Assembly (NCBI RefSeq): GCF_007197885.1
Contig: NZ_VKKG01000003.1
Coordinates: 372,001-436,000 of the forward strand
Length of the DNA stretch: 64,000 nt
From: Tessaracoccus rhinocerotis
GTDB lineage: Bacteria; Actinomycetota; Actinomycetes; Propionibacteriales; Propionibacteriaceae
Direction of reading: 5' to 3'
Position 1 is the stretch's first letter, and each line of letters opens with the position of its first letter. Positions 16,783 through 55,826 of the stretch are shown one piece after another. A program made the position numbers and the translations under genes. The notes under the pieces are model-generated. The model searched no databases, was not told the origin of the DNA, and saw only the letters and a list, made by a program, of their open reading frames with translations.

Positions 16783-16875
16783 TGGTCGAGTAGGGCGCCC
16801 AGCGCCCGTGTCGAGACCTTGGGTTCTGTGTGGTTAGGTCTCGACACGCTCGCCGGGCGAGCTACTCGACCAACG
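16783..16875. repeat. Dispersed repeat A, head-to-head inverted pair
   Basis: A copy with TGGTCGAGTAGGGCGCC and GTGTCGAGACC ends (16783-16818) faces an inverted copy (AGGTCTCGACACG ... CTACTCGACCAACGGG, about 16836-16875). Together they can form a long hairpin. A further partial CTCGACCAACGGGTGGT follows. The pair fills the gap between the htrA stop and the serB start, both on the minus strand. Confidence 0.85.
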
Positions 16876-16905
16876 GGTGGTCACAGCTGCTCGACCAACG
16901 GGTGG

Positions 16906-18206
16906 TCAGGCGTCGGCTGCGGTCAGCGTCGCCTCGACCTGCGTCTCGGAGCCGTCCCGGATGACGTTGAGCGTCACCGTCTGGCCCACCTCGGAGGCGC
17001 GGATCAGCGCGACCAGCGACTCCGACCCGGTGATCGGGCGGTCGTCGAGGGCGTTGATGATGTCGCCGGGGCGCAGGCCAGCCTCCTCGGCAGGGGAGTC
17101 GGGCACCACCTCGGCGACCTCCGCGCCGAGCTGGTCGGAGTCGCGGACGTCGGCGGCGCTGATGCCGAGCTGGGCGTGCTCGGCGGTGCCGTCGGCCAGC
17201 AGCTGGTCCACCACGTACTCCACCTGCGTGACCGGGATCGCGAAGCCGATGCCGATGTTGCCGGATTCGCTGGAGCCGGACGTCAGCGTCGCGATCGAGC
17301 TGGTGATGCCGACGAGTTCGCCGGCCGCGTTCACCAGCGCACCGCCGGAGTTGCCGGGGTTGATGGCCGCGCTGGTCTGGATGGCGGGGGTGACCACGAC
17401 GCCGTCGCCATAGCTGCTGACTTGTTGGACACGGCCCTGGTGGTCACGGGGCGGTCGAGTGCGGAGACGATGCCGGTGGTGACGGTGTCGGCCAGACCCA
17501 GGGGGTTGCCGACGGCCATCACCGGGTCACCGACCGCGAGGTCGGAGATGTCGGCGTAGTTGATCGTCTGCAGCTCCGACGGCGGCTCGACCAGGCGGAT
17601 GACGGCCAGGTCCGTGGACGGGTCGGTGCCCACGACCTCTGCCTCGTAGGCCTTGGTGCCGATGACGACGGAGATCTCCGTGCCCGCGCCGCCGCCGGCG
17701 ATGACGTGGTTGTTGGTGACGATGTTGCCGGCGGAGTCGAGGATCACGCCCGAGCCTTGGCCGTTGCCGCTCATGCCGGTGACCTGGATGGCCACGACGG
17801 CGTCCGCGACGGCGGCGGCGGTGGCCGCCCAGTCGGGGTTCGACGGGTCGGCCTGGATCACCTGGGGCGCGCCGGCCTCGACGACGGTGCCGCCGCGGTC
17901 GTCGTCGGTCAGGGAGAGCGCCGTGGCCGCGCCGACCGCGCCTGAGCCTCCGACGACGAGGAGCGCGGCTGCCAGCACGCCCGCGACGCTGGAGCGCTTG
18001 CGGGGCTTGGTCGAGAACGCCTGCGCGGCGCCGTAGGGGGCCGAACCGCGGGGCGGCGCCGACGGGCCGCCCAGCTCACGCGGGGTGGTGGGCATGCTGG
18101 GGTGCGGGGTGGGGTAGGAGGTCTGGTCGGCGTACGGCCGGTTGGGGCCGGGCCAGCCCTGGTTGGAGGACTGCTGGAACTGTGGGCCTGGGCTTGCTTG
18201 TGTCAT
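16906..18206 (-). pseudogene. HtrA/DegP-type membrane-anchored serine protease with internal frameshift
   Basis: Two frames together make one protease. The first (from 18206; GGAG 9 bp upstream, GTG/ATG choice also possible at 18215) has a Pro-rich cytoplasmic tail, one helix (SVAGVLAAALLVVGGSGAVG), the His site VTNNHVIAGG, the Asp site STDLAVIRL and GNPLGLADTVTTGIVSALDRP, then runs off into unrelated residues. The second resumes with VVTPAIQTSAAINPGNSGGA (catalytic Ser) and a C-terminal PDZ domain (LGISAADV, PAEEAGLRPGDIINALDDRP). The shift lies near 17400-17440, in GTGTCCAACAAGTCAGCAGC. Either a real inactivation or a sequencing/assembly error. Intact homologues degrade misfolded envelope proteins. 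Confidence 0.85.
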
Positions 18207-25969: not shown

Positions 25970-26586
25970 CCGCGTCCGTTCTGGTCGTCGACGACCACCC
26001 CGTGGTTCGCAGCGGGCTCCGTGCGGTCATCGACGCCGACGAGGCGCTGGAGGTCGTCGGGGAGGCCGCCACGGGGGAGGAGGCGATCAAACTCGCCGCC
26101 CACCTGAGACCCGACGTGGTCCTGTGCGACCTGCGTCTGGGTTCCGGTATCGACGGCATCGAGACCACCGCAGCCCTGCGGGCGCTCGACCCGGCCCCGG
26201 CAGTCCTCATCCTCACAACCTTCGACAGGGATGCCGAGATCCTGGGCGCCATCGAGGCCGGCGCTGCCGGCTACCTGTTGAAGGACCTCGCCCCGGAGAT
26301 GATCGTCGAGGGCATTCGGCGTGCGGCGACGGGGGACATCGTCCTCGCGCCCGATCTGGCCACCCGCGTGCTGCGAGGAATGCGGAACCCGCTGCCCAAG
26401 CTGACAGCGCGGGAGGTTGAGGTGCTCAGACTGCTCGCCACCGGCGCCACGAACCGGGAGATCTCACGCTCCCTGTTCGTGACCGAGGCGACCGTCAAGA
26501 GCCACTTGAACCACATCTTCACGAAGCTCGGGGTCGACAGTCGTTCCCGAGCCGTCGCCCACGCGCAGGAGACCGGCCTCATCTGA
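25966..26586 (+). CDS. LuxR/NarL-family response regulator
   Basis: 206 residues. Receiver domain with acidic pair D9-D10, phospho-acceptor D55 (VVLCDLRLG) and K106 (YLLKDLAPE); then a GerE helix-turn-helix LTAREVEVLRLLATGATNRE with ATVKSHLNHIFTKLGV. Partner of the overlapping kinase. No nearby target operon is apparent; repeat B copies follow it at once, so its targets lie elsewhere or are its own operon. Confidence 0.93.
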   Translation: MTASVLVVDDHPVVRSGLRAVIDADEALEVVGEAATGEEAIKLAAHLRPDVVLCDLRLGSGIDGIETTAALRALDPAPAVLILTTFDRDAEILGAIEAGAAGYLLKDLAPEMIVEGIRRAATGDIVLAPDLATRVLRGMRNPLPKLTAREVEVLRLLATGATNREISRSLFVTEATVKSHLNHIFTKLGVDSRSRAVAHAQETGLI

Positions 26587-26683
26587 GATGGTCACCTGAG
26601 CCGGGTCACGATCGCCGACGTCGACGTCGGGGGCGTCCAAGGGGCCGCCCGCGGAGGACCTGACCTCACCCGGGCTGGACGTG

Positions 26684-26790
26684 CGTGGAGCGGACAGCAC
26701 CGCAGACGGAGCCGTGCGCTCCAGCGGCCCCGGCGGGGGAGGTGCGTGGAGCAGACAGCACCGGAGACGGAGCCGTGCGCTCCACCGGGA
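26684..26790. repeat. Hairpin repeat B, two further copies
   Basis: Two copies (about 26685-26727 and 26742-26788) of the GTGGAGCGGACAGCACCG...GCCGTGCGCTCC element seen at 24506, with the same linker pattern. They follow the response regulator, so the two-component pair is bracketed by repeat B doublets. Confidence 0.85.
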
Positions 26791-26950
26791 TTGTGGGCGC
26801 CCCGTTCGATCCGGCATCAGTCCAAGTGGTCCCCGTGGCGGCCGTGACGCCAGGCGCGAGCGCCCCGCCGTTGCCGGGTGCCCAAGCAGGGGTTACCGGG
26901 GCGACCGATGCGCAATCGTTGCCTCTAGGGGAAATACTTCGGATTGACCG

Positions 26951-26980
26951 TTGACATCCCACCGTGTGGCTGCCTAGAGT
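26951..26980 (+). promoter_or_regulatory. Sigma-70-type promoter of the catabolic cluster
   Basis: TTGACA at 26951-26956 and TAGAGT at 26975-26980 are 18 bp apart, the best promoter-like pair seen in the window, 75 bp before the first gene of the cluster and just upstream of a perfect palindrome. Confidence 0.7.
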
Positions 26981-26987
26981 TTGTGGC

Positions 26988-27003
26988 GCGCAATCGATTG
27001 CGC
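26988..27003. promoter_or_regulatory. Perfect 16-bp palindrome, probable LacI operator
   Basis: GCGCAATCGATTGCGC is fully self-complementary with a central CG step, the hallmark of LacI-family operators. It begins 8 bp after the -10 box, where a bound repressor would block initiation. The LacI gene at 34347 in the same cluster is the natural candidate regulator (inference). Confidence 0.75.
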
Positions 27004-27054
27004 AGCGGACGCCGAAGTTCGCCAACCGTCGGATGGTCGTCAAAGGAGAACACC

Positions 27055-28224
27055 ATGGACCGAGTAATGATCCCTGCCCATGAGTACGCGGAGCGAGCCA
27101 AGCGGGCAGGTGAATTGATGCGGCAGCAGGGGCTGGACGCCCTGCTGCTCAACGGCAATGAGGCGGACTACGCCAACACTCGCTACTTCAGCGGGTTCTG
27201 GCCCGTCTTCGAGCGGGCCGGCGTCCTGCTCAACCCCGACGGCAAGGGGGCGCTCCTCGTCGGGCCCGAGTCGGACCTCTTCGCCAAGGACACCGGTCAC
27301 ATCGACGACGTGTTCGCCATGGCGGAGTACCGCGAGTCCGCCGACCCCGCCTACCCGCACCTCAAGCTCCCGAAGTTCGGCGACGTCTTCAAGCACCTCG
27401 GCGTCACCGGTGACAACCTGCGAATCGGCGTCGCCTCCGTGCTCGACACCAACGTCGTCGTCTGGCAGGCGCTCCAGGAGGCCTTCCCGAATGCCGAGCT
27501 CGTGGACGCCCGCGACATCATGGTGGCCCTGCGCTCGGTCAAGTCCGACGCCGAGGTGGCCTGCCTGAAGGAGGCCGGCCGCATCACCGACCTGGCCATC
27601 AAGGACGTCGTCGCCGCCATCCGCCCGGGGATCACTGAGCTCCAGCTCGTCGGCGTGGCCCAGAAGTCCATGTACGAGAACGGCGCGGAGTACGAGGGCC
27701 TGCCGCAGTACTGCTTCAGCCAGGCCAGCACCCGGCACGCCATCTCCCGCTCCTCCTACCGCACGATCTCCAAGGGAGACATCGTCCAGCTCAACCTCTC
27801 GGCGGCCGTCGACGGCTACAGCCCCGCGGTGGGCATCCCGGTGTCCGTCGGCAAGCTCGAGGGCGAGAAGAGGGACATCGTCGACTTCATCCTCGAGATG
27901 CACATGTGGACCGAGGCCGAGCTCCGCGCCGGTCGGGTCTCCGGCGAGATCGCCCGCGACTACGAGCAGAAGTTCCTCGACGCCGGACGCAAGGACGCCT
28001 ACGTCTACGGGCCCTGCCACGGCCTGGGCCTGACCGAGGTGGAGGCCCCCTGGATGGAGACCACCTCCGAGTACGAGCTGAAGCCGAACATGACCTTCCA
28101 GGTCGACACGTTCGGGATCGGCTCCGACTTCGGTGTCCGCTGGGAGAAGCCCGTCGTCATCCGCGAAGGCGGCGTCGACTTCCTCGCCGACCAGATCGGC
28201 CACATCTACGAGCTCGACTTCTGA
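27055..28224 (+). CDS. M24-fold (creatinase / aminopeptidase P-like) hydrolase with lost metal ligands
   Basis: About 389 residues, AAAGGAG before ATG 27055. N-terminal creatinase-type domain (LLLNGNEADYANTRYFSGFW) and C-terminal pita-bread domain. Where metal-dependent M24 peptidases have two Asp, this has DIVQLNLSAAVDGYSPAVGI (Asn and Pro/Ala instead); HGLGLTEVEAP keeps the His, the next ligand Glu is Asp (FQVDTFG), and VRWEKPVVI keeps the last Glu. Creatinase, which is metal free, shows a similar LN...GY pattern. So a non-peptidase C-N or related hydrolysis of a small molecule is likelier than prolidase activity. First gene after the palindromic operator. Substrate unknown. Confidence 0.8.
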   Translation: MDRVMIPAHEYAERAKRAGELMRQQGLDALLLNGNEADYANTRYFSGFWPVFERAGVLLNPDGKGALLVGPESDLFAKDTGHIDDVFAMAEYRESADPAYPHLKLPKFGDVFKHLGVTGDNLRIGVASVLDTNVVVWQALQEAFPNAELVDARDIMVALRSVKSDAEVACLKEAGRITDLAIKDVVAAIRPGITELQLVGVAQKSMYENGAEYEGLPQYCFSQASTRHAISRSSYRTISKGDIVQLNLSAAVDGYSPAVGIPVSVGKLEGEKRDIVDFILEMHMWTEAELRAGRVSGEIARDYEQKFLDAGRKDAYVYGPCHGLGLTEVEAPWMETTSEYELKPNMTFQVDTFGIGSDFGVRWEKPVVIREGGVDFLADQIGHIYELDF

Positions 28225-28230
28225 CCCGCA

Positions 28231-28258
28231 GGGGCGCGGCCGCCGTCGGCCGCGCCCC
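28231..28258 (+). terminator. GC hairpin after the M24 gene
   Basis: Perfect 11-bp stem GGGGCGCGGCC / GGCCGCGCCCC with a 6-nt loop, 6 bp after the stop. No clear T-run, so it may attenuate, or protect the 3' end of the first message, rather than fully stop transcription. Confidence 0.55.
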
Positions 28259-28417
28259 TCCCACCCATCCGTACTGAGATTGCCACTCGAGGGGATCCCC
28301 CGACCCACGAGTCCCGCGCCCCCTTTCAAGACGTCGACGCACCGTTGCGCCGACGCCCCACGCGGCCCGGAGAGCCCTCCGGACCCGATGTCGAACAACC
28401 GGAAATGGAGCAAGAAA

Positions 28418-29503
28418 ATGCGAATCAAGACAGGAGCAGTGGCAGCCCTGCTGTCGGCGGCCATGATGCTGGTGGGATGCTCGGGTGCCACGGAGGACCC
28501 GTTGGCCGCGGAGACCACCGGGGGTGGCGAGGCCACCCAGAACGAGGGCGGCGGCGACGAGGGCCACGTCTTCGGCGAGGACGAGACCCTGATCGGCGGC
28601 AGCATCTTCACCCTGCAGTACGCCTGGTTCCTCGGCGCCCAGGAGGGCATGGAGCAATGGGGCGAGGAGCACCCCGAAGCGAACGTGAAGTTCCAGTTCG
28701 AGGACTCCCAGCAGGACATCCAGACCAACATCGAGAACCTGGAGAACCTCGTCTCGGCCGGCGCCAAGGGCATCGTCGTCTTCCCGACGGACGCCAAGGC
28801 GATCATCCCCACGATGGTGGACCTCCACAGCCGCACCGGGACGCAGTTCGTCGTCGGTGACTACCCGCAGCAGCCCGACGACCCGGCCGACGCCGTCTGG
28901 AACACCTTCGTCGGACACGACATGACCGCGCTCGGCGAGGCCGCCGGCCAGGTGGCCGTCGACTACCTCGACACGCTCGGCAAGGACGATCCGACACTGC
29001 TGTTCATCACCGTCCCCACGTCCGGCCAGGTGAGCGCTGACCGCTTCAACGGCTTCAGCGACGTCGTGACCGCCGCCTACCCGAACGCGACCATCCTGGA
29101 GGAGGGCGACTCCGGAGCCGCCGACCGCAACTCCGCGCAGAGCCTGATGGAGAACGTCCTCCAGCGCGAGGCGACGATCGACGTCGTGGCCGGCCACAAC
29201 GACGCCGAGGTGATCGGCGCCTACAACGCCGCCGTCGGTGCGGGCCGCGACGGCGAGATGAAGTTCATCGGCATCGCCGGTGACAAGGAAGTCCTCCAGT
29301 ACATCCAGGACGGCAACGAGTCCTGGATCGGCGAGGTGCTGCAGGATCCCGTGGTCCTCGGGTACACCGCCATGGACGCACTGTGGAAGTCGATGGCCGA
29401 AGGCGAGGAACTGCCCGAGACCTATGACCTGCCGGCACCCGAGGCCATCACCCCGGACAACATCGGCGAGTACGACTGGCAGAACTGGACCTGGCTCGGC
29501 TGA
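28418..29503 (+). CDS. Sugar-type ABC substrate-binding lipoprotein (RbsB/rhizopine-like)
   Basis: About 361 residues. ATG 28418 has GGAG 7 bp upstream; ATG 28388 would add ten residues. Signal peptide RIKTGAVAALLSAAMMLVGC with lipobox LVGC, then a Gly/Glu-rich tether. The mature part is a two-lobed periplasmic-binding-protein-like domain (FLGAQEGMEQWGEEHPEANV, GIVVFPTDAKAIIPTM, FVGHDMTALGEAAGQVAVDY, VVAGHNDAEVIGAYNAAVGA) of the ribose/rhizopine class. Supplies ligand to the RbsA/RbsC-type pair encoded downstream. The hairpin after it could raise its message level relative to the membrane components. Confidence 0.9.
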   Translation: MRIKTGAVAALLSAAMMLVGCSGATEDPLAAETTGGGEATQNEGGGDEGHVFGEDETLIGGSIFTLQYAWFLGAQEGMEQWGEEHPEANVKFQFEDSQQDIQTNIENLENLVSAGAKGIVVFPTDAKAIIPTMVDLHSRTGTQFVVGDYPQQPDDPADAVWNTFVGHDMTALGEAAGQVAVDYLDTLGKDDPTLLFITVPTSGQVSADRFNGFSDVVTAAYPNATILEEGDSGAADRNSAQSLMENVLQREATIDVVAGHNDAEVIGAYNAAVGAGRDGEMKFIGIAGDKEVLQYIQDGNESWIGEVLQDPVVLGYTAMDALWKSMAEGEELPETYDLPAPEAITPDNIGEYDWQNWTWLG

Positions 29504-29517
29504 GCCCCTCCAATCCT

Positions 29518-29552
29518 GGTTGGGCGGGCGTTCCCCCGGCGCCCGCCCAACC
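29518..29552 (+). terminator. Intercistronic hairpin after the binding-protein gene
   Basis: 13-bp perfect stem GGTTGGGCGGGCG / CGCCCGCCCAACC with a 9-nt loop between the binding-protein stop and the next start. No T-run. Typical position for partial termination or mRNA stabilisation in ABC operons. Confidence 0.55.
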
Positions 29553-29581
29553 GGCCCACTGACCCGGAAGGTTGACCAAAG

Positions 29582-31714
29582 ATGATCCGCACCCTCCCCG
29601 AGCCCAAGCAGCTCACAGAAGGCGGGACGCTGACCCGCTCCTTCACCCACCTGCGTGCCGAGGTCGAGGCCATCGGCGACGTTCCCGCCGAGGAGGTGCG
29701 CGAACTCGCGGCCCTGCGATTCTGGAACTTCCCGGCAATCCTCACCGACGACACGGGCGCCGATCCCTTCCCGCTGCGCATCCGTGAGGGCGACGGCGGC
29801 GCGGCCGACGTCGAGAAGCCGGACCTGTTCGCCGAGCAGGGCTACGTCCTGGAGGTCGACGCCGCGGGCGCAACTCTGCACGCCCGGGCCCGCGACGGCC
29901 TGGTCAACGGGCTCACCACGCTCAAGCAGCTGATCTCCGAGCAGGAGGCCGCGGGCGGGACGGGTGCGTTCCGAATCCCCACCTGCCGCATCGTCGACCA
30001 CCCCTCGATCCCGGTGCGCGCGGTCGCACCCACCTTCAGCTGGTACGCCGGCTACGGCCGCATCGGCTTCGACATGCAGCTGTGGGGCTTCGACGAGTGG
30101 GAGCAGTTCCTGCACCAGTGCGTGGACCAGAAGGTCAACCAGCTCAACATGGTGATGTACGGCTACTGGCCCTTCGAGTTCCCCGAGTACCCGGAGACCA
30201 CCTTCAGCAACATCCCCGTGCAGGTGTGGAACCAGGAGAACGGCCGCTTCATCGACGTCGCCTACTCCCACCCGAACGTGGTGGACAACTACCTGCCGCG
30301 GTTCCTCGAGCTCGCCCACCGGATGGGCGTGAAGGTGCTTGCCTACGTGGGCCTCAACTCCTACAACGGAGGCTGGAGCATCGCGCACCCGGAGAAGCGG
30401 ATGGTGCCGCCGGAGGGCTCGGACTTCCTCAACGACTTCGACTCCGTCTGCCTGTCCGACGAGGAGTCCGTGGACTACATCCTCGCCTCGATGCGGCGGA
30501 TCGCCGAGCTCGGCTTCGACGGCTACACCCTCGAGGAGTCCGAGGAGGGCTTCTGGTTCTGCAACTGCGAGCGCTGCACCGAGCGCTGGGGCCGGCACGC
30601 GTCGTCGCCCGGGGAGGCGAAGCACCAGGCCAACACGGAGCTGCTGATGCGGATCCGCGAGGAGGTGCGCGCCGTCAACCCCGAGGTCATCATCGGCATC
30701 CGCGCCTACCGCCAGCCACCCTTGGAGAAGGACCCGGCCTGGCTGCAGGCCACCGCCGACGCGCTGCCCGACGACGTCGTCCTGTTCTGGGCGCCCGCCC
30801 TCTACGTCCCCCCAACCGAGTTCGAGAAGTGGGTGGCCGCGTTCGGCAAGGAGCGGATCTGGGGCCGGGACTCCGAGTCCAACTCCATCACCTCGACGAT
30901 GGGGCGGCTCTACCGGACGTTCGAGTCCAACATGGTCCGCTACGACGACGAGCCCAACGTGCAGGTGATCGAGCGCGACATCGAGCAGCACATCAGCAGC
31001 GTCGAGGCGGACGTGCACGGCATCAACGGCTACATCTTCGAGTGGTTCGGACTGTTCCTGCACCTGTTCGCGCACGGCAACTACGGCTGGGGCTCGCGGA
31101 TGGACCAGGACGAGTTCTTCGAGCGCGTCGGCGCCACCACCTTCGGCGACGAGCTCGGCGCGCGCGTGCTGCGTGTGATGCGCAGCATCCTGACCATCCA
31201 CGAGTCCCAGATCCCGCTGTACACGACACCGTTCCCGTTCCAGTCGAACAAGATGACCGACGCCGACATCCCGCGGATCGGGCAGGCGATCGCCGACCAC
31301 GACGCGTTGCTGGCCGAGATCCGTGCGATCCGCGACGAGCTCGACGCGCACCCCCGGTTCCGGTTCTGGTCCAAGCACTTCGACCGGCTCGAGAACGCCG
31401 AGCGCCGCAACCGCGTGATCTACGACCTGGTGCTGGCGGCGCTCGCCTACGAGCGCGAGTCCGACCCCGCACGCAAGGACGCCCTCCTCGACGAGGTCCT
31501 GCACCACAACGAGCGGGACTTCGCCATCGCGAAGGAGATGTTCTTCGACGTCAACCCCGTCGGCTGGACCGGCGTCAGGAGCTGCATGATGCCGTACCAC
31601 GAGATGAAGCGGCTGATCCACAACATCCGACACCCCCAGAGCCCGGATGACGACATCATCTGCTCCGGCATCGAGGCCCTCGGCTGGCTGTGGCTGGCCG
31701 AGAAGGAGTCCTGA
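29582..31714 (+). CDS. Cytosolic glycoside-hydrolase-like protein (GH20-type N-terminal domain, DUF4838-like TIM barrel)
   Basis: About 710 residues, no signal peptide. The N-terminal 130 residues look like the small alpha/beta domain preceding GH20/GH84-type barrels (YVLEVDAAGATLHARARDGL, VNGLTTLKQLI). The barrel part has FSWYAGYGRIGFD, VDQKVNQLNMVMYGYWPF, MGVKVLAYVGLNS, then FDGYTLEESEEGFWFCNCER followed by CTERWG; the acidic cluster EESEEG is a candidate active site and CxxC resembles DUF4838 proteins. I infer intracellular cleavage of an imported glycoside. The stop overlaps the ATPase start (TGATG). Not an assigned GH family as far as I can tell. Confidence 0.7.
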   Translation: MIRTLPEPKQLTEGGTLTRSFTHLRAEVEAIGDVPAEEVRELAALRFWNFPAILTDDTGADPFPLRIREGDGGAADVEKPDLFAEQGYVLEVDAAGATLHARARDGLVNGLTTLKQLISEQEAAGGTGAFRIPTCRIVDHPSIPVRAVAPTFSWYAGYGRIGFDMQLWGFDEWEQFLHQCVDQKVNQLNMVMYGYWPFEFPEYPETTFSNIPVQVWNQENGRFIDVAYSHPNVVDNYLPRFLELAHRMGVKVLAYVGLNSYNGGWSIAHPEKRMVPPEGSDFLNDFDSVCLSDEESVDYILASMRRIAELGFDGYTLEESEEGFWFCNCERCTERWGRHASSPGEAKHQANTELLMRIREEVRAVNPEVIIGIRAYRQPPLEKDPAWLQATADALPDDVVLFWAPALYVPPTEFEKWVAAFGKERIWGRDSESNSITSTMGRLYRTFESNMVRYDDEPNVQVIERDIEQHISSVEADVHGINGYIFEWFGLFLHLFAHGNYGWGSRMDQDEFFERVGATTFGDELGARVLRVMRSILTIHESQIPLYTTPFPFQSNKMTDADIPRIGQAIADHDALLAEIRAIRDELDAHPRFRFWSKHFDRLENAERRNRVIYDLVLAALAYERESDPARKDALLDEVLHHNERDFAIAKEMFFDVNPVGWTGVRSCMMPYHEMKRLIHNIRHPQSPDDDIICSGIEALGWLWLAEKES

Positions 31715-33261
31715 TGAGCATTGCCACACCCGCCCGAGAAGAGGAGCGCAGCATGGACGACGAGACCGCCGACGCGCCGCTGGTGGAGGTTCGGGGAGCC
31801 GTCATGGAGTTCCCCGGCGTGGTCGCACTGAACGACGTCGCCTTCGACCTGCGGCCCGGTGAATGCCACGCCCTCGTCGGCGAGAACGGCGCCGGCAAGT
31901 CCACGCTGGCCAAGGCGATCGCCGGCGAGAACACCCTGACGAGGGGCGAGATCCTCGTGAACGGCGAACCCATCCCGAGGGGCTACGACTCGCGCGCCTC
32001 GCAGCACCTCGGCATCGCCGTCGTGCACCAGGAGTTCCAGCTCATGGACGAGCTCACCGCGCTCGAGAACATCTACATGGGCCACCACGAGAAGCGGGGC
32101 CCGTTCATCGACCGGCGCGCCCAGCGGGTACGGGCCCGGGAACTCCTCGACTACCTGGGCGTCGACATCCACCTCGACGTCCCGGTCAAGTACCTCCGGA
32201 CCGCCGAGAAGCAGCTGGTCCAGTTGGCCCGGGCGCTCTCGCAGGACGCCCGGACGATCATCCTGGACGAGCTCACCGCGGTGCTGCCGGAGAACGACGT
32301 CGAGAACATCTTCCGCATCGTCAACCTGCTGCGCGCCGACGGCAAGGGCATCATCTACGTCTCGCACCGGCTCGACGAGATCTTCGAGGTCTGCGACCGC
32401 TACACCGTCCTGCGCGACGGACGCCACGTGAAGACCGGCGACGTCGCGACCCTCACCAAGCCGGAGCTGGTGGAGTACATCGCGGGCCGCCAGCTCAGCC
32501 AGGTGTTCCCCGAGATCAGCGAGCCCCAGGACGAGGTCGTGCTGCAGGTGGAGGGCCTCACCAGCGACGCGTTCACCGACGTCGACCTCACCGTCCGCCG
32601 CGGCGAGGTGGTCGGGATCGCGGGCCTGGTGGGCGCCGGCAAGACCGAACTGCTGCGTGCCATCTTCGGCGACTACAAGATCAAGTCCGGCACCATCTCC
32701 GTCAACGGCCGGCGGGTGTCCATGACGTCGCCGCGAAAGGCGATCGCGAACGGCCTCGGGTTCATCCCCGACGAGCGCAAGCGGCTCGGCCTGAACAACG
32801 CCCTGGACGTTCGCAAGAACACCACGTTGCCGTCGATGCGCAAGTTCCGGAAGTGGGGCGTGTTCATGGACGACCGCGCCGAACTGAAGCAGTCCTACGA
32901 GACCCTCGACACGCTCCAGCTGCGCTACAGCTCGCTGTGGCAGACCACGACGAAGCTCTCCGGCGGCAACCAGCAGAAGATCGTGATCGCCAAGTGGCTG
33001 ATCGCCGACACCGAGATCTTCCTGATGGACGAGCCCACCCGCGGCATCGACGTCGGGGCCAAGTCCGAGATCTACAAGCTCATCACCGCGCTCACCGCCA
33101 GGGGCAAGTCAGTGCTGCTGGTCTCACCCGAGATCGAGGAACTCCTCGGCCTCGCGAACCGCATCTACGTCCTCTACGAGGGCCGCATCCGCGACGAGTT
33201 CGCGGGAGAGCGCAAGAACCAGTCCGAAATCATGACCAGCCTGTTGGGAGCCGAGAAGTGA
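31714..33261 (+). CDS. Sugar ABC transporter ATPase, RbsA type
   Basis: About 515 residues, two ATPase halves. First: Walker A ENGAGKST near 57, TAEKQLVQLARALSQ as the relaxed signature, Walker B TIILDELTAVL, YVSHRLDEIFE. Second: GLVGAGKTE near 303, LSGGNQQKIVIAKWL, EIFLMDEPTRGIDVGAKSEI. The half-degenerate pattern is usual for RbsA/MglA proteins. AGAAGGAG precedes ATG 31714. Drives import together with the permease whose GTG start overlaps its stop. Confidence 0.94.
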   Translation: MSIATPAREEERSMDDETADAPLVEVRGAVMEFPGVVALNDVAFDLRPGECHALVGENGAGKSTLAKAIAGENTLTRGEILVNGEPIPRGYDSRASQHLGIAVVHQEFQLMDELTALENIYMGHHEKRGPFIDRRAQRVRARELLDYLGVDIHLDVPVKYLRTAEKQLVQLARALSQDARTIILDELTAVLPENDVENIFRIVNLLRADGKGIIYVSHRLDEIFEVCDRYTVLRDGRHVKTGDVATLTKPELVEYIAGRQLSQVFPEISEPQDEVVLQVEGLTSDAFTDVDLTVRRGEVVGIAGLVGAGKTELLRAIFGDYKIKSGTISVNGRRVSMTSPRKAIANGLGFIPDERKRLGLNNALDVRKNTTLPSMRKFRKWGVFMDDRAELKQSYETLDTLQLRYSSLWQTTTKLSGGNQQKIVIAKWLIADTEIFLMDEPTRGIDVGAKSEIYKLITALTARGKSVLLVSPEIEELLGLANRIYVLYEGRIRDEFAGERKNQSEIMTSLLGAEK

Positions 33262-34244
33262 GCACCGCAACCGCAACATCCACCTACGCCGCCAAGGCCA
33301 CTCGCTTCTCCGGCGGCCTGCGGGCCTTCGTGAACGAGTGGATGATCCTGTTCCTGTTCCTGGCACTGTTCGCGATCTGCGCGATCACGATCGACCGCTT
33401 CCTGGAACTGGGCAACCTGATGAACATCGCCCGGCAGATCTCCTTCCTGGCGATCGTCGCGCTGGGGCAGTTCTTCGTGATCCTCACCGCCGAGCTGGAC
33501 CTTTCGATCGGCTCGAGCATCGGCCTGCAGTCGGTGCTGCTGGCCGGGTTCGTGGCCAACTCCGGCTTCTCCGTCTGGGCGGCGCTCGCCCTGGTGCTGG
33601 TGACCGCCGTCGTGATCGGGGTGGTCAACGGGCTGCTGGTCATCCACGGCAACGTGCCGTCGTTCATCGCCACGCTCGTGACGATGAACGTGCTCACGGG
33701 CATCGCGTTCCTGTACTCCCGGGGCCTGCCAATCAGCGGCCTGCCCAGCTGGCTGAACTACCTCGGCATGGGCTACTTCTACTCGATCCCCGTGCCCGTC
33801 TACCTCATGATCATCGTCACCGTCTTCTGCTACGTGTTCACCATGCACACCGAGCTGGGGCGCAGCTTCTTCGCCGTCGGCGGCAACAAGGAGGCCGCCC
33901 GCCTCTCCGGCATAAACGTGAAGTTCATCGGCGTGCTCGCCTTCGTGCTGTGCTCGCTGCTGGCCACCATCGGTTCCATCGGCCTGACGGCCCGCACGAT
34001 GTCCGGTTCCGCGACGCTCGGTGACGCCATGCTGTTCGACGTCATGACCGTGGTCGTCCTGGGCGGCACCTCCCTGTTCGGCGGCAAGGGCAACGTGCTC
34101 GGGGTCGTCCTGGCGGCGTTCCTCACCGGCGTCATCTCCAACGCGATGGTGCTGATGAGCATCGACACCTACTTCCAGTGGATCGTCAAGGGCGCCATCC
34201 TCATCACGGTGGTCCTGATCGACGTCAACTCGAAGCGGAAGTGA
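33258..34244 (+). CDS. Sugar ABC transporter permease, RbsC type
   Basis: About 328 residues from GTG 33258 (GTGA overlap). Eight or more helices (WMILFLFLALFAICAITI, FLAIVALGQFFVILTAELDL, SIGSSIGLQSVLLAGFV). LTAELDLSIGS, GNVPSFIATLVTMNV, GRSFFAVGGNKEAARLSGIN and FDVMTVVVLGGTSLFGGKGN are BPD_transp_2 (RbsC/XylH) signatures. Forms the membrane channel of the cluster's importer. Confidence 0.94.
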   Translation: MSTATATSTYAAKATRFSGGLRAFVNEWMILFLFLALFAICAITIDRFLELGNLMNIARQISFLAIVALGQFFVILTAELDLSIGSSIGLQSVLLAGFVANSGFSVWAALALVLVTAVVIGVVNGLLVIHGNVPSFIATLVTMNVLTGIAFLYSRGLPISGLPSWLNYLGMGYFYSIPVPVYLMIIVTVFCYVFTMHTELGRSFFAVGGNKEAARLSGINVKFIGVLAFVLCSLLATIGSIGLTARTMSGSATLGDAMLFDVMTVVVLGGTSLFGGKGNVLGVVLAAFLTGVISNAMVLMSIDTYFQWIVKGAILITVVLIDVNSKRK

Positions 34245-34346
34245 CCGTGCGCGCGCACCCGCGGTGGTCCATCAGGGCGCCCGGGGCCCACATGGAGTCG
34301 CCGCCCTTGCCAGAGGGTACGTTCGTGCCGTGGAGGAGGTGGGGTC

Positions 34347-35333
34347 ATGACAACGCTGCGTGACATCGCCCAGGAACTGGGGATCGCGGAGTCGACGGTC
34401 TCCCGCGTCCTCAACAACAAGGGCCGGGTGGGCGAGGTCACCAAGCAGAAGGTGCTGGCCTACGTCGACAAGGTCCAGTACCACCCCAACCAGATGGCCA
34501 AGTCGCTGAAGATGCAGTCGGCGCACTCGCTCGGCGTGGTGGTGCCCGACATCAGCAACGAGTTCTACGCGCTCCTGTTCAAGGAGATAGACCGACTGAT
34601 CAGCGTCGAGGGGTACACGCCCATCCTCTTCGACATAGGGGACGACGTCGAGCGCGAGGAGGCCTTCCTGGCCCAGCTGCGTTCCCACACCGTCGACGGC
34701 CTGGTGGTGGCCACCTCCGGCAGCGACGCCTACCGGGGCCTGCCCGAGTCGACCATGCGCAGGATCGTGTTCGTCGACAACCTGCCGCACGGTGACCCCG
34801 AGTGCAGCTACGTCGGCGCCGACAACGTGAAGTCCTCCTACGCGCTGACCCAGCACCTCGTCGAGCGGGGCCACACCCGGATCGCGACCGTGGTGGGTCC
34901 GGCGGGGGAGTCGTCGGCACTGGAGCGCCTCGAGGGGATGCAGCAGTGCCTGGCGGACAACGACCTCTCACTGCCTGCCGACTGGATCGCACGCACCAAC
35001 TTCCAGTACGCCGACGGCTACGCCAAGGCGACGGCGCTGCTGGATCGCGACGACCCTCCCACCGCGATCATCGCCCAGAACAACGTGCTGGCCTACGCCA
35101 CCATCCGTGTGGCCAGGTCGCGGGAGATGCAGGTCCCGCGCGACCTCGCCGTCGCCTGCTTCGACCACCTGGACGCCTACGGCTTCATGCGGCCCGTGAT
35201 CACCAGCATGGTGCAACCGCTGGACCAGATCGCCGCCAAGGCGTGGGAACTGCTGCAGGCCGGAATCGCCGGCGAGCACCCGCACACGCTGCACCGCTTC
35301 GACGCGAGCTTCCAACTGGGCGAGACCACCTGA
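34347..35333 (+). CDS. LacI-family transcriptional regulator
   Basis: About 328 residues. N-terminal LacI helix-turn-helix and hinge: TTLRDIAQELGIAESTVSRV, LNNKGRVGEVTKQKV, YHPNQMAKSLKM. Ligand domain of the type I binding-protein fold (LGVVVPDISNEFYALLFKEI, DGLVVATSGSD, VGADNVKSSYALTQHLVERG, IAQNNVLAYATI). Starts 102 bp after the permease gene with GGAGGTGGGGTC upstream. Probably represses the cluster through the palindrome at 26988 and is released by the imported compound or a product (inference). Confidence 0.93.
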   Translation: MTTLRDIAQELGIAESTVSRVLNNKGRVGEVTKQKVLAYVDKVQYHPNQMAKSLKMQSAHSLGVVVPDISNEFYALLFKEIDRLISVEGYTPILFDIGDDVEREEAFLAQLRSHTVDGLVVATSGSDAYRGLPESTMRRIVFVDNLPHGDPECSYVGADNVKSSYALTQHLVERGHTRIATVVGPAGESSALERLEGMQQCLADNDLSLPADWIARTNFQYADGYAKATALLDRDDPPTAIIAQNNVLAYATIRVARSREMQVPRDLAVACFDHLDAYGFMRPVITSMVQPLDQIAAKAWELLQAGIAGEHPHTLHRFDASFQLGETT

Positions 35334-35352
35334 CGTAAGTACACCCACCCCC

Positions 35353-35611
35353 GTTGGTCGAGTAGGGCGCCGACCGACACCCGCAACCGTTGGTCGAGTC
35401 GGGCGCCCCGCGCCCGTGTCGAGACCTCCGCGATCACAACTCCATCCCCCGTTGGTCGAGTAGGGCGCCCGGCGCCCGTGTCGAGACCTCCGCGATCACA
35501 ACTCCATCCCCGTTGGTCGAGTAGGGCGCCCGGCGCCCGTGTCGAGACCTCCGCGATCACAACTCCATCCCCGTTGGTCGAGTAGGGCGCCCGGCGCCCG
35601 TGTCGAGACCA
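35353..35611. repeat. Tandem array of dispersed repeat A (period about 61 bp)
   Basis: Five copies, the first truncated, of GTTGGTCGAGTAGGGCGCC followed by GTGTCGAGACC. The last three are separated by an identical spacer (TCCGCGATCACAACTCCATC), giving near-perfect 61-bp units. The array fills the gap between the LacI gene and the deacetylase gene. Spacers are the same, so this is not CRISPR. Confidence 0.9.
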
Positions 35612-35636
35612 CCGCCCCGACCCGAAAGTGAGAACC

Positions 35637-36548
35637 ATGAACCAGAACCCAATCACCGTCGTAATCGGCATCGACATGGAGACTGACGTCGGCAGCTTCA
35701 CCCCCTACTACGAAGGTCTCCGGGGCGGTACGCCGCTGCTGCTGGACCTGTTCGACGAGCTCGACGTGACCACGACCTTCCTGTTCACCGGCGAGGCTGC
35801 CCGCGACAACCCGGAGGTGGCCAGGGAGTGCCTGGACCGGGGCCATGAGGTGGGCTCGCACTCCTACCAGCACGAGACCGTCGGCGACCCGCTGTTCGAC
35901 CTGCCCGGCACCAAGCCGATCCTCCCGCACGAGGTGTACCCGCGGATCGAGTTGAACACCAAGCTCGTCGAGGAGGCCACCGGGATCCGACCCGTCTCCT
36001 TCCGCTGCCCGCGACTGTGGGGATCCACGGAAGTGGTCAATGCGCTGGAGGAGCTCGGCTACGTCGCCGACCTCACCTACCCGATGTACTACTACCGCGA
36101 GCAGTTCGCCCCCTACCACCCGGACCCCGAGGACTGGACCAAGCAGGGGGACTCCAAGGTCCTCGAGATCCCCAACTTCGCGGACATGGTCATGGAGTCC
36201 AACGATCCGGGTCTCGAGCGCGACCGCGACCAGTGGCCCCTGTTCCGCACCAAGGGCGGGCAGTACATGCTGGAACGCTCGCTGGCGTTCCACGAGTTCT
36301 GCGGTGAGAAGGGCATCGACACCTTCCTGTGCTTCTACATCCACCCCTGGGAGTTCTGGCCGATGGAGCCGAGCTACAACTTCGGCGAGGCCACCGTCAT
36401 CCCCGAGGAGTTCATCACCAAGAACACTGGGCCAGCCGCCATCGAGGAGATGCGCATCCTCATCCAGGGCCTGAAGGACGCAGGTGCGGTCTTCATGCAG
36501 TCCAAGGACGTCCCAGCTCTCCTGCAGGAGCGGGGCGTGAACTCATGA
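35637..36548 (+). CDS. Polysaccharide-deacetylase-fold (NodB/PuuE-like) protein
   Basis: About 303 residues, no signal peptide, so cytosolic. NodB motifs: VVIGIDMETD (D13 and the metal Asp/Glu region, variant of TFDDG), DRGHEVGSHSYQHE (zinc H75 and H79), ATGIRPVSFRCPRLWGS (motif 3), HPWEFWP near the end. The layout is closer to the PuuE/allantoinase-like intracellular branch than to cell-wall deacetylases. Hydrolysis of an amide or N-acyl group on a small molecule is likely. The stop overlaps the start of the ASRT gene. GTG 35628 is an alternative start. Only repeat A separates it from the LacI gene, so it may belong to that regulon. Confidence 0.8.
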   Translation: MNQNPITVVIGIDMETDVGSFTPYYEGLRGGTPLLLDLFDELDVTTTFLFTGEAARDNPEVARECLDRGHEVGSHSYQHETVGDPLFDLPGTKPILPHEVYPRIELNTKLVEEATGIRPVSFRCPRLWGSTEVVNALEELGYVADLTYPMYYYREQFAPYHPDPEDWTKQGDSKVLEIPNFADMVMESNDPGLERDRDQWPLFRTKGGQYMLERSLAFHEFCGEKGIDTFLCFYIHPWEFWPMEPSYNFGEATVIPEEFITKNTGPAAIEEMRILIQGLKDAGAVFMQSKDVPALLQERGVNS

Positions 36549-36904
36549 CCGGTCGCAAGGTTTGGTTCTTCCCCGACGCGGAGCTCCCGCCCCCGGGCGA
36601 CGGCGAGATCCAGGGCCACGAGTCGGTCATCATCCTCAACCCCAACCCGCAGCCTGCGAAGGTCGAGATCACCCTCTACTGGACCACGGGGGAACCGGAC
36701 AGGTTCACCGTCGAGGTTGAGCCGGAGGCGGTCCGCTGCCTGCGGACGAACGTGCTCTCCGACATGGGTGGCCACGACATCCCGCTCGAGGTGCAGTACG
36801 CCATCGGGTTGTCCTCGGACGTGGGCGTCGTCGCGCAGTACGGGCGCCTCGACGTCCGCCAACCCAACATGGCGTTCTACTCGACCCCCGGCTACTGGGA
36901 GTAG
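36545..36904 (+). CDS. ASRT-superfamily (sensory rhodopsin transducer-like) protein
   Basis: 119 residues starting at ATG 36545 (ATGA overlap). Matches the Anabaena sensory rhodopsin transducer pattern: KVWFFPDAELPPPG, GHESVIILNPNPQPAKVEIT, LYWTTGEPDRFTVEVEPEAV, an SDVGVVAQYGRLDVRQPN core and a terminal MAFYSTPGYWE. There is no rhodopsin here. The superfamily has been proposed to bind small molecules such as sugars, and members often sit in sugar-use operons. Coupled to the deacetylase, it may bind the same ligand or act as its accessory subunit. Confidence 0.8.
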   Translation: MTGRKVWFFPDAELPPPGDGEIQGHESVIILNPNPQPAKVEITLYWTTGEPDRFTVEVEPEAVRCLRTNVLSDMGGHDIPLEVQYAIGLSSDVGVVAQYGRLDVRQPNMAFYSTPGYWE

Positions 36905-36923
36905 CAGCCGGGAGCCGGCGTCG

Positions 36924-38018
36924 TCAGTCCAGCGCGAGCACCTGCTCGATCAGCTCCAGCCGGCGGGCGGAGTCGGCGTCGGAGAGGAAGTCGATCTCGA
37001 AGCTCATCTCGACGCTGCCCATGCCCGGGATCTCGCGCACCATGCCGTCGCGCTCGGCGGCGAGGAAGCCGCGGTGGTGGGCGGTCGAGGGCAGGCAGAA
37101 GCCAGCGGCCTGCTCGTCCCCGGTGTTGGAGATCCAGCGGATGGCGTGGGGCAGGTGTTCGGTTTCGTAGCTGACCGACGCGGCGCGCCCGTCCGGGCGT
37201 ACCTGCAGGAAGTGGGCCCAGCCGTCGTCGTCGGAGACGGGCGTCAGCACGGCGCAGTACTCCGGCACCACCGGCTGCGACTCGTGGAGGGTGTCGCCGG
37301 CGCCCAGGTCGGTCTCGATCCGGGCGGTGTACTCGGCGGTCTCGGTGTCCTGGCCGGGGTCGGGTGCGAGCTCGAAGTGGTCGGCGTCCATGGGGACCGT
37401 CTGGGCCAGGCGGGCGCCGTCGAAGATGGGCCAGTTCACGTGGCAGAGGTAGGAGTACCGGAACGGGTTGGTGCGCTGGTTGCTGATGCGGACGTCGAGG
37501 TCGAGGGCCGTGCCGCCGGGGCGGAGGGCGAGGAACGGCTCGAACACTACGTCGATACCGTGGCTCACGCGGTGCCGGAAGCTGCCGGTGATGCCCACCC
37601 ACGAGCCCTCCGGGCCGTCGCCCAGCAGCAGCTCCGCCTCGTCGAAGCGACCGTTCGGCAGCTCGCCGTGGTGCGCGTGGGTGTCCTCAGCGGAGGGGTG
37701 CCCGATCCCGGTCAGGCCGCAGTGCAGCAGGAAGCCGCCGTAGGTCTCACCGAAGGTGGTGGAGGCGGCGGGCTCCTCGAAGTGGGTGACCATCGTGAGC
37801 GGCTCGCCGTCGACGGTGTAGCGCCAGACCTGCTGCCCGCGGAACGGGAGCACCACCACCTCGACGCGGTCCGTGGTGATGCGAACGGCCTCGACTCCGG
37901 AGTCGTAACGGAAGGTGCTGACGACGGCGTCGTTGGTGCTCACGATCACCCGCTCGGCGTCGGAGAACATCGAGGGGTGCAGGTGGACCGCGGAGGTGGG
38001 TACGTAGTCAGGGCGCAT
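36924..38018 (-). CDS. DUF4432 protein, aldose-1-epimerase-like fold
   Basis: About 364 residues. Galactose-mutarotase-type beta sandwich with conserved pieces seen in DUF4432: VVLPFRGQQVWRYTVDGEPL, YGGFLLHCGLTGIGHPSAED, HAHHGELPNGRFDEAELLLG, FRYSYLCHVNWPIFDGARL, HLPHAIRWISNTGD. Invariant His residues (CGLTGIGHP, HAHHGE) fit a sugar active site. Convergent with the ASRT gene, stops 19 bp apart. Probably interconverts anomers, or otherwise handles sugars, in the same catabolic setting. Confidence 0.8.
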   Translation of the reverse strand: MRPDYVPTSAVHLHPSMFSDAERVIVSTNDAVVSTFRYDSGVEAVRITTDRVEVVVLPFRGQQVWRYTVDGEPLTMVTHFEEPAASTTFGETYGGFLLHCGLTGIGHPSAEDTHAHHGELPNGRFDEAELLLGDGPEGSWVGITGSFRHRVSHGIDVVFEPFLALRPGGTALDLDVRISNQRTNPFRYSYLCHVNWPIFDGARLAQTVPMDADHFELAPDPGQDTETAEYTARIETDLGAGDTLHESQPVVPEYCAVLTPVSDDDGWAHFLQVRPDGRAASVSYETEHLPHAIRWISNTGDEQAAGFCLPSTAHHRGFLAAERDGMVREIPGMGSVEMSFEIDFLSDADSARRLELIEQVLALD

Positions 38019-38217
38019 TTCAGGGGCTCCTTCGCCGGATCTGAGGGTGCCTCCATGCTAGCGGTGGCCCGCCAGGACCCTTGGAATGACCCCATCGCGC
38101 GTAGAATCGTGCGTCACGAGTCGAGAAGCTGGCTCCCCTTCCGAGGGCGTGCATCGTCTGCGCGTCCGCGGTCCATCGGGATGCCAGCGCTGGTGTCCCA
38201 TCCAGAAGAGGTGGAGC

Positions 38218-39408
38218 ATGCGGCGTTTCGGAGTTGAGGAAGAGTTTCTCGTGGTGGAGGCGGACAGCCTCACCATGGTCCCGCTTGGCGAGGACATCGC
38301 AGTGCAGCACCGTCGGATGGGGCCCCGCGACATCTCCGGGGCGGGAGTCGCGCGGGGACTGCTCGATCGGTGGGCGGCGAGGTCGCAGCACGAGCTCGAG
38401 CCGGAACTGCACCAGGAGCAGCTGGAGGTCGCGGGACCCCCGGTGCTGACGTTCGGTGCCCAGCTCGACTCGATCCGCATGGGTCGGGCGCTGGCGGATG
38501 CCGCCGCTCGGGAGAGCGGGGCCCGCGTCGTCGCGCTGGCCTCTCCCGTCTGGCGGCAGGAGCCGCATCTCACCCACGGCGACCGCGCGCGTGAGATCGG
38601 CTGCGACTTCGGGCTCCTCGCTGCCGAGCAGTTGAGCTGCGGAACCCACGTCCACGTGGAGGTGGCCTCCCGGCAGGAGGGCGTCCAGGTGCTGGATCGG
38701 ATCCGGCCCTGGCTTCACGTACTGCTCGCGCTCAGCGCCAACTCGCCGTTCTGGTACGGCCAGGACTCGGACTTCGCGAGTTTCCGCTACCAGTCCTGGA
38801 GCCGCTGGCCCACGGCCGGCCCGTCGGACGTGCTGGGCTCTGTCCTGGCCTACGACTGCCGCACCCGCGCCCTCCTCCGGGCGGGGGCAGCGACCGACAC
38901 GGGCATGCTCTACTTCGACGCGCGGCTGTCAGACCACTGCCCGACGGTGGAGGTCAGGATCGCCGACGTCTGCCCGGACGCCCGTCACACGGCCGGCATC
39001 GCGGCGCTGACCCGGGCGCTCGTGGCGACGGCCGCCCGGCAGTGGGCACTGGGGGAGGCCCCGTCGCAGGCGAGCACCGCGCAGCTGCGCGCCTGGGCGT
39101 GGCACGCGGCGCGGCACGGCCTCGGCGAGACACTCGGCACCCCGCACGGCGGCGCCCAGCTCCCCGCGCCGGAGGTGGTCTCGCAGCTGCTGGACCTCGT
39201 CATGCCCGACCTCATCGACGCCGGCGACGCGGACGACGTGACGCAGGTGGTGGCAGACATCGTCGACACCGGCAGTGGCGCCACCGCCCAACGCGCGGCC
39301 TTCGCCGCCCGCCGGGAACTGCGCGACGTCGTCGCCGCGGCACTGCGGCTCACCCACGGTGAGCGGCCGCCGGACGAGCCGTCGTCGCTCGGGCGCCTGA
39401 GCGCCTGA
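38218..39408 (+). CDS. Carboxylate-amine ligase, YbdK / glutamate-cysteine ligase type 2
   Basis: About 396 residues. GCS2 motifs: RRFGVEEEFLVVEADSL at the N-terminus (ATP/metal Glu cluster), LLAAEQLSCGTHVHVEVAS, LLALSANSPFWYGQDSDFAS, FRYQSWSRWPTAGP, YFDARLSDHCPTVEVRIADV. AAGAGGTGGAGC precedes ATG 38218. Family members join glutamate to cysteine or an amine with ATP in the cytosol; in actinobacteria YbdK-type proteins are common and their product is often unproven. Confidence 0.88.
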   Translation: MRRFGVEEEFLVVEADSLTMVPLGEDIAVQHRRMGPRDISGAGVARGLLDRWAARSQHELEPELHQEQLEVAGPPVLTFGAQLDSIRMGRALADAAARESGARVVALASPVWRQEPHLTHGDRAREIGCDFGLLAAEQLSCGTHVHVEVASRQEGVQVLDRIRPWLHVLLALSANSPFWYGQDSDFASFRYQSWSRWPTAGPSDVLGSVLAYDCRTRALLRAGAATDTGMLYFDARLSDHCPTVEVRIADVCPDARHTAGIAALTRALVATAARQWALGEAPSQASTAQLRAWAWHAARHGLGETLGTPHGGAQLPAPEVVSQLLDLVMPDLIDAGDADDVTQVVADIVDTGSGATAQRAAFAARRELRDVVAAALRLTHGERPPDEPSSLGRLSA

Positions 39409-42704: not shown

Positions 42705-42840
42705 GGGTCTCGACACGGCCGCTCGTTCCTCGCGGCCTACTCGACCAGCGGGGGCGGGGTCCTTCGGGGCTCGTTCCTCGCGGCCTACTCGACCAGCGGG
42801 GGCGGGGTCCTTCGGGGCTCGTTCCTCGCACCTCGGGGCC
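42705..42840. repeat. Dispersed repeat A variant, inverted, with partial copies
   Basis: GGTCTCGACACGG, then a different centre (GGCCGCTCGTTCCTCGCGGC), then TACTCGACCAGCGGG (42705-42753). The latter half repeats at about 42767-42801 and in part again to 42835. The ends match repeat A on the other strand while the middle differs, so it is a subtype. No gene in 42595-42903. Confidence 0.75.
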
Positions 42841-55583: not shown

Positions 55584-55826
55584 GTCGGTCGAGTAGGGCG
55601 AGGAGCCCGTGTCGAGACCATTCGGGCGGGCTCTCACCGTCCCGCTGGTCGAGTAGGGCCTGCCTCTCTCGTTGGTCGAGTGGGCGTGTCTCTCTCGTTG
55701 GTCGAGTAGGGCGCCCAGCGCCCGTGTCGAGACCATCCGGCCGGGCCTCGCTGGTCGAGTAGGGCGCCCAGCGCTCGGCCCTCGCCCGCTGGTCGAGTAG
55801 GGCGCCCAGCGCCCGTGTCGAGACCT
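55584..55826. repeat. Cluster of about six dispersed repeat A copies
   Basis: Starts of TGGTCGAGTAGGGC-type units occur at about 55584, 55644, 55671, 55697, 55750 and 55789; several are truncated and only three (near 55584, 55697 and 55789) run through GTGTCGAGACC. All are in the same orientation. The stretch 55511-55881 holds no gene. Confidence 0.85.

Follow-up and report, generated by a model that had tools for sequence, protein, structure and literature searches.

In this study, we analyzed a stretch of 64,000 nucleotides from the genome of Tessaracoccus rhinocerotis (contig NZ_VKKG01000003.1, positions 372,001 to 436,000; this whole stretch is referred to as the window), particularly a cluster located at positions 26951-38018, where a promoter-like pair of boxes and a perfect palindrome precede nine genes. 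According to Pfam, the eight genes on the plus strand encode, in this order, an M24 pita-bread hydrolase (27055..28224), a CUT2 sugar-type lipoprotein binding protein (28418..29503), a glycosidase-like protein of 710 residues for which we use the working name GHx (29582..31714), an importer ATPase with two ABC domains (31714..33261), an importer permease with a GTG start (33258..34244), a LacI-family regulator (34347..35333), a NodB-fold, CE4-like hydrolase (35637..36548), and an ASRT protein, a predicted small-molecule (sugar) binding protein that also matches PDB entries 1nc7 and 2ii7 (36545..36904). The ninth gene, for a DUF4432 protein (36924..38018), lies on the minus strand and is convergent, so that the single run of genes described in an initial annotation of this DNA comprises the other eight. 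All the families named there are present, each above its Pfam cut-off: Creatinase_N with Peptidase_M24, Peripla_BP_4, Glyco_hydro_20b, ABC_tran, BPD_transp_2, LacI with Peripla_BP_3, Polysacc_deac_1, ASRT, and DUF4432. The stops and starts of GHx and the ATPase (ATG), of the ATPase and the permease (GTG), and of the NodB-fold and ASRT genes overlap, which resembles the arrangement of co-transcribed genes, and the cluster is presumably co-transcribed. By eye, the enzymes of the cluster, including GHx and the NodB-fold protein, carry no signal peptide; the binding protein carries a lipobox-like VGC, and its start at 28418 has a GGAG ribosome site, with an alternative start at 28388.

The joint presence of Peripla_BP_4, a double ABC ATPase and BPD_transp_2 identifies the importer as one of the CUT2 (RbsABC) type; its ATPase also matches NCBIfam sugar importer ATPases, and none of the importer proteins reached an NCBIfam equivalog cut-off for any named sugar. 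The M24 protein had been described as metal-free-looking, which our alignments bear out: the two metal-binding Asp residues of prolidase align with N and A, and both are absent in 18 of 18 aligned rows, where H322, E330 and E364 are retained and invariant. We take this loss of both Asp ligands to be the pattern found in creatinase and in the ectoine hydrolase DoeA. The NodB-fold protein belongs to a deacetylase family, and it has the Asp of CE4 motif 1, HxxxH and RxP; D13, H75, H79, R123, P125 and H236-E239 (HPWE) are invariant in 13 rows, and no NCBIfam equivalog cut-off was reached. DUF4432 proteins are presumably mutarotase-like, with a galactose-mutarotase-like fold, and the one in the window has no sequence relative in the PDB. 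In the ASRT protein, H25, E26 and N32 of the SHEshChhN signature (PMC2739507) are invariant in 18 rows, and the signature Cys is I in the window.

The promoter-like pair is a sigma-70-like TTGACA-18-TAGAGT on the plus strand (26951..26980), and the perfect 16-bp palindrome, a candidate LacI operator, lies just 3' of its -10 box (26988..27003). As patterns alone, both are unexceptional: positions 26500-38500 hold one promoter-like site vs 0.7 in shuffles; the palindrome, at three mismatches or fewer, has one match in the window, and 44 of 100 shuffles also have at least one; and its degenerate form has one match in the genome, with four for the backwards control. What distinguishes the two elements is their conservation before the M24 gene in four Tessaracoccus genomes, together with the uniqueness of the palindrome, which is the sole copy in the 3.55-Mb genome at two mismatches or fewer. 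Both boxes can be aligned in these four genomes, as TTGACA or TTGACG followed by a TAGAGT-, TAACGT- or TAAGGT-like box, and the palindrome has the form GCRCAAWCGWTTGYGC. Among the 158 loci that we fetched (numbered with an L), the degenerate form occurs in six stretches only, all of which span the region upstream of M24 in the window genome, L007/L020, L008 or L009; direct reading of Actinomyces culturomici (L021) revealed the similar sites CGCAATCGATTACC and GTAATCGATTGCC before its M24 gene. The palindrome is therefore likely to be the operator of the cluster's LacI, which would bind and repress at 26988-27003, and from its sequence the unit is very likely inducible. In Clostridia and Spirochaetes, the cluster is adjoined by regulators of approximately 750 residues in which a LacI protein is joined with a solute-binding domain of the extracellular type (L022:6378-8636 and, at other loci, nine proteins like it; SBP_bac_8 and SBP_bac_1 in the one protein scanned).

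The eight plus-strand genes are found in the same order, with identities of 60-88%, in three other Tessaracoccus genomes (L007-L009; L020 is a longer stretch of L007's genome). A DUF4432 gene is present in all three with varying placement: codirectional and directly behind ASRT in L008, convergent and approximately 3 kb away in L020, and in two pieces approximately 1.7 kb apart, perhaps an interrupted gene, in L009 (554-3215). No counterpart of the histidine kinase and response regulator upstream of the cluster or of the ligase downstream was found in the 20-kb loci L007-L009, which suggests that the cluster occupies different places in different genomes. Of 293 genomes sampled from the order, 4 contain GHx, and these are all Tessaracoccus, with no match in at least 20 further Tessaracoccus genomes; of 396 sampled from the phylum, 5 contain it, namely the window's genome and four from a single distant family. 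This sparse occurrence indicates an accessory unit. The GC content is 65-68% over the cluster vs 67-72% around it, a dip so slight that composition is no proof of foreign origin, and there is no tRNA within positions 20000-45000. Plasmid records contain no relative of GHx at E 1e-5 and none of the window's M24 at 1e-20; with the M24 of L083 as query, the matches in five plasmid records were Xaa-Pro peptidases at 26-27% only.

Outside the genus, an alignment of nine GHx proteins used as query identified 44 loci in named records, five of which repeat loci already fetched as L007 and L016-L019. Their hosts include Tessaracoccus, Actinomyces, metagenome-assembled genomes of Actinomycetota, many Clostridia, Paenibacillus, Cohnella, Pseudogracilibacillus, Spirochaetes, two proteobacterial records, and one record without a named phylum. 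Hidden Markov models detected M24 in 36 of these loci and ASRT in 33, an ATPase of at least 400 residues is encoded in 36, and tblastn found the binding protein in 37, the permease in 36, and a LacI-type gene in 34. It is important to note that these counts are lower bounds, with several loci on short contigs, and that the models, built from tblastn matches and run unfiltered on six frames, are a sensitivity check and not an independent count. The linkage of the cluster families is far beyond chance, and their genes are interleaved, in varying order, across three phyla. The co-occurrence search proposed with the initial annotation thus agrees with its view that the genes belong to a single LacI-containing unit for uptake and breakdown. 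Homologous loci without the linkage, which it had named as a refutation, are found in part: in three of the 44 (L035, L047, and L060), there is no M24, ASRT or partner hydrolase near GHx. The cluster is shared by bacteria of several phyla as a predicted conserved import-and-hydrolysis unit.

The position of the NodB-fold hydrolase is where these loci differ most instructively, because three unrelated predicted hydrolases fill one slot: 14 of the 44 loci have a NodB-fold protein, 13 a creatininase-family protein, and 10 an MlrC/M81 protein (Pfam confirms representatives of each type), seven have none of them (L035, L036, L041, L047, L052, L060, and L063), and no locus has two together. Independent placement would lead to approximately 10 overlaps, and an overlap of zero did not arise in any of 100,000 shuffles, a statistic that ignores kinship. 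A quickly built tree of GHx, with 41 rows that comprise the window, L007-L009 and 37 loci out of the 44, implies at least six changes of hydrolase type; of its 38 inner branches, 9 are open, and four of its rows have long branches. L020 was omitted as a repeat of L007, and L032, L035, L040, L045, L061, and L063 because of problems with the reading frame, near-duplication or truncation. On the contig of L041, a creatininase-type gene and an M24 gene lie approximately 10-12 kb from GHx (L087), outside the counted stretch. Amide hydrolysis is the usual chemistry shared by the three folds. The filling of the NodB slot by two other C-N hydrolase folds fits an amide-type bond, and C-N cleavage is favored by the alternation of three such folds next to a metal-poor M24. 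A similar exclusion, for which the support is weak, exists between the mutarotases: RhaM is present in 13 of the 44 loci, DUF4432 in 10, and both in none (for the nine DUF4432 loci that were used, 2.7 shared loci would be expected, and zero has a probability of 0.03). In one actinobacterial family, the M24 subfamily lies beside an M20 deacylase (L141, L142, L143, L146, L152, L153, and L158), possibly a fourth partner hydrolase.

Based on this gene content, we propose, with a probability of roughly 0.55, that the cluster serves the breakdown, under LacI control, of a glycoside with a C-N bond in its aglycone or amino sugar. When no ligand is present, LacI would occupy the palindrome behind the -10 box and block transcription. 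The intact conjugate would be taken up by the lipoprotein and the CUT2 ATPase and permease, and the cytosolic GHx, with its hexosaminidase N-terminal domain, would cleave the glycosidic bond, after which a mutarotase (DUF4432 here and RhaM elsewhere) would accelerate anomer exchange of the freed sugar. The C-N bond of the remaining part could then be removed in two hydrolytic steps by a metal-dependent amidohydrolase (the NodB-fold protein here, a creatininase-family or MlrC-family protein elsewhere) and the metal-poor M24, in the style of creatininase and creatinase or of ectoine hydrolase and its deacetylase, while ASRT may sense an intermediate. The active-site motifs of the NodB-fold and creatininase-family rows are conserved, in agreement with this proposal; in the creatininase-family proteins, E29, H31, D40, H112, E115, and E192 are invariant in 15 rows (12 of the 13 loci, with L043, which is in two pieces, omitted, plus L087 and two from modules without GHx).

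The binding proteins provide information about the ligand. A protein of the window's type (above 300 bits) is encoded in 13 of the 14 NodB loci (missing in the short L046), in 12 of the 13 creatininase loci (missing in L044), and in L036 and L063. In an alignment of the window's protein with 12 from NodB loci, 10 from creatininase loci, L036, and L063 (L020, L037, and L045 were omitted), the 24 other rows are 53-78% identical to it, and W64, D142, H161, D162, R203, N255, and Q303 are invariant; because the same binding protein is kept beside both hydrolases, the ligand is probably the same for both. The presence of GHx, the mutarotases, the CUT2 importer and ASRT points to a sugar conjugate. 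Within this description, N-acyl amino sugars, aminocyclitols, ureides and Amadori-type conjugates were considered, and the evidence separates none of them.

Several observations weigh against our proposal. First, nine of the 10 MlrC loci encode a different binding protein, similar to that of L048 (60-100%) and matched by the window's query in four of them at 26-30%; these loci, like L044, may serve a different ligand. Second, no downstream enzyme of a kind that would reveal the fate of the products recurs among the selected neighbours that were scanned; L041 alone has sugar kinases, one isomerase-like gene and one aminotransferase gene near GHx. Third, the glycosidase assignment is partial. 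The window's GHx reaches 37.8 bits with Pfam GH20b (cut-off 26.1), its PDB profile matches rest on the N-terminal domains of GH84 and GH20 enzymes, and a middle that looks like a TIM barrel by eye and a conserved tail follow; among the 41 members, GH20b matches 40 at E<=1, DUF4838 18 (best 8e-7) and GHL6 15, the last two weakly. The protein initially described as glycosidase-like thus has a GH20b domain that Pfam recognizes, but its barrel stays below every Pfam cut-off. In addition, an assignment to GH163/DUF4838 by profile comparison found no support, hhalign against a 10-row DUF4838 alignment from Paenibacillus and Cohnella giving a probability of 0.3. Fourth, the one creatininase-family protein tested scores 68 bits with the creatininase model (cut-off 235) and 61 bits with the IolN model (cut-off 245). 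IolN is a creatininase-fold C-C hydrolase of inositol breakdown, so that enzymes of this fold are not all amidases, which weakens the amide reading.

This last point leads to a different chemistry for the same uptake unit, namely that the hydrolases and M24 act, in the manner of IolN, on an oxidized sugar or inositol and open a lactone or break a C-C bond in it. The two close scores are compatible with it, as are the sugar chemistry to which the CUT2 importer and the RhaM mutarotases point, the presence of an SDR oxidoreductase near GHx in four of the 44 loci and of a Gfo/Idh oxidoreductase in L060, and the fact that ASRT is otherwise, in the available text of its description, a sugar-operon protein (PMC2739507). 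In the other loci, however, no oxidoreductase family is recurrent among the annotated neighbours, which are a selection of those present; the three alternating folds usually hydrolyze amides, and we know of no M24 protein that hydrolyzes C-C bonds. We therefore consider this chemistry unlikely.

The domains of GHx and the family names of its partners also bring to mind the scavenging of glycopeptides or cell-wall fragments, in which GHx would be a hexosaminidase, the NodB-fold protein a deacetylase, and M24 and MlrC true peptidases. GHx has the GH20b, GH84-like N-terminal domain, NodB proteins are deacetylases, M24 and M81 are peptidase families, and an M20 deacylase is adjacent to GHx in two loci (L044 and L046) and to M24 in 7 of the 26 M24 loci of Actinomycetota. 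Yet the importer is of the monosaccharide CUT2 type, M24 lacks its two Asp ligands in all 18 aligned rows, unlike the aligned Xaa-Pro peptidases, and mutarotases are unsuited to peptides; scavenging of this kind seems to us unlikely as well.

A further difficulty for our proposal of a glycoside with a C-N bond is that strong M24 genes are also found with ASRT, RhaM, creatininase or MlrC proteins and CUT2 importers in modules that lack GHx and whose parts vary (L080-L083, L085, and L086); since an M24-ASRT module exists in this form, the glycosidic bond is not needed for it. We also searched for M24 in eight genomes whose GHx loci seemed incomplete, and seven had a match at 1e-20; the best match in the genome of L050, at 172 bits, is weak and perhaps an ordinary M24, and the genome of L047 (1.7 Mb) has no match. 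The genomes of L035, L060, and L030 lack M24 beside GHx but have it elsewhere with ASRT, and with RhaM, the creatininase family, MlrC or DUF4432 nearby. GHx and the M24-ASRT-hydrolase module might thus belong to two independent sugar pathways that are often adjacent and share no substrate, as the GHx-free modules and the second large CUT2 ATPase and second permease in eight of the 44 loci (L022, L023, L025, L026, L034, L043, L044, and L062; L039 has a second ATPase only) would allow. The interleaving of both gene sets in varying order in three phyla and the overlapping starts and stops in the window speak against such a separation, and a second importer could import the deglycosylated product; we regard it as very improbable.

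Under our proposal, GHx and its importer would constitute an added entry branch for the glycosylated form. More tentatively, and with less than even confidence, the cluster may be the branch that carries out deglycosylation in a larger, so far undescribed catabolic system with a fixed M24-ASRT core and one of three unrelated amidohydrolases for the step. Such a system would degrade a common glycoside containing nitrogen in many anaerobes and in some of the actinobacteria, and GHx would represent a new family of glycoside hydrolases. ASRT itself is not restricted to such modules and, in agreement with published work, has further partners: it was identified in 31 of 396 Actinomycetota genomes and the M24 subfamily, at E 1e-70, in 15 of the 396, namely the window's genome and 14 that belong to a single family, and 6 of 30 Actinomycetota ASRT loci have an M24 gene within approximately 1.5 kb, the window's own M24 being farther away. 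Among the modules, L081:9319-17803 combines three M24 genes, ASRT and a CUT2 importer in one cluster. URO-D family proteins, presumably often corrinoid methyltransferases, are encoded in or beside modules (L080:11103-12149, L082:8842-9882, L032:13238-14473, and L044:3198-4334), a hint at a methylated substrate in some anaerobes.

Compared with known systems, the cluster is a variant of the familiar sugar ABC catabolic operon; the initial annotation had not recognized this combination, and wordings that join these family names returned no description of the gene set in the open-access literature. Its closest precedent is doeA/doeB (eutDE) of ectoine degradation, where, in the available text, a creatinase-like M24 that acts on a C-N bond is followed by a deacetylase within one catabolic cluster (PMC3187862). 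However, the window's M24 scores 48 bits with the ectoine_eutD (DoeA) model, whose cut-off is 613 (the 12 families listed include no creatinase model); DoeB belongs to the M14 family and not to the NodB, creatininase or MlrC families; and a sugar importer, GHx, ASRT and a mutarotase are not named for doe in the available part of the same source (PMC3187862). Creatinine degradation is similar in that a creatininase-family protein and a metal-poor M24 occur together in 12 of the 13 creatininase-type loci (the stretch of L030 has no M24), and it differs by the low creatininase score of the one protein tested, by the sugar-type importer and GHx, and by the presence of NodB instead of creatininase in the window. 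ASRT genes beside monosaccharide ABC transporters were described by De Souza et al. in 2009 (PMC2739507), where the partners of intracellular ASRT include an isomerase, an aldolase, a kinase, an amylase and others; the text available makes no mention of M24, a GH20b protein, NodB, creatininase or MlrC. With the GH20, GH84 and GH163 hexosaminidases, GHx shares the GH20b N-terminal domain and, in 18 of its 41 members, a match to DUF4838, a domain annotated as GH163 (PMC9870897), a family that includes an enzyme that releases N-acetyllactosamine antennae at GlcNAc-Man bonds (PMC10154615; both as far as the accessible text goes). In contrast, none of the catalytic models for GH20, GH84 and DUF4838 matches the window's GHx (for DUF4838 not even at E<=1), which by eye has no signal peptide and has, after GFDG, an EESEE followed by CxCxxC that is invariant in 41 rows. 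GHx may be the founding member of a glycoside hydrolase family.

Other elements were also found in and around the cluster. Between the LacI and NodB genes, positions 35387-35615 contain a tandem array with a 61-bp unit in 3.7 copies; the same gap measures only about 60 bases in L007 and 40 in L008, so the array looks like a later insertion. Units containing TGGTCGAGTAGGGCG are also present at 55646-55713, and other arrays at 16860-16908 and 42721-42829. Upstream of the cluster, two similar imperfect hairpins (26686-26723 and 26746-26785) are probably a dispersed genome repeat. PADLOC returned no match for five cluster proteins.

The preservation of a binding protein more than 50% identical in Actinomycetota, Clostridia, Bacilli and Spirochaetes suggests one defined compound that is worth importing in many habitats. 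The swap of three hydrolases at one position offers strong genetic access to the bond that would be cut in this compound, and ASRT would gain a metabolic role outside rhodopsin.

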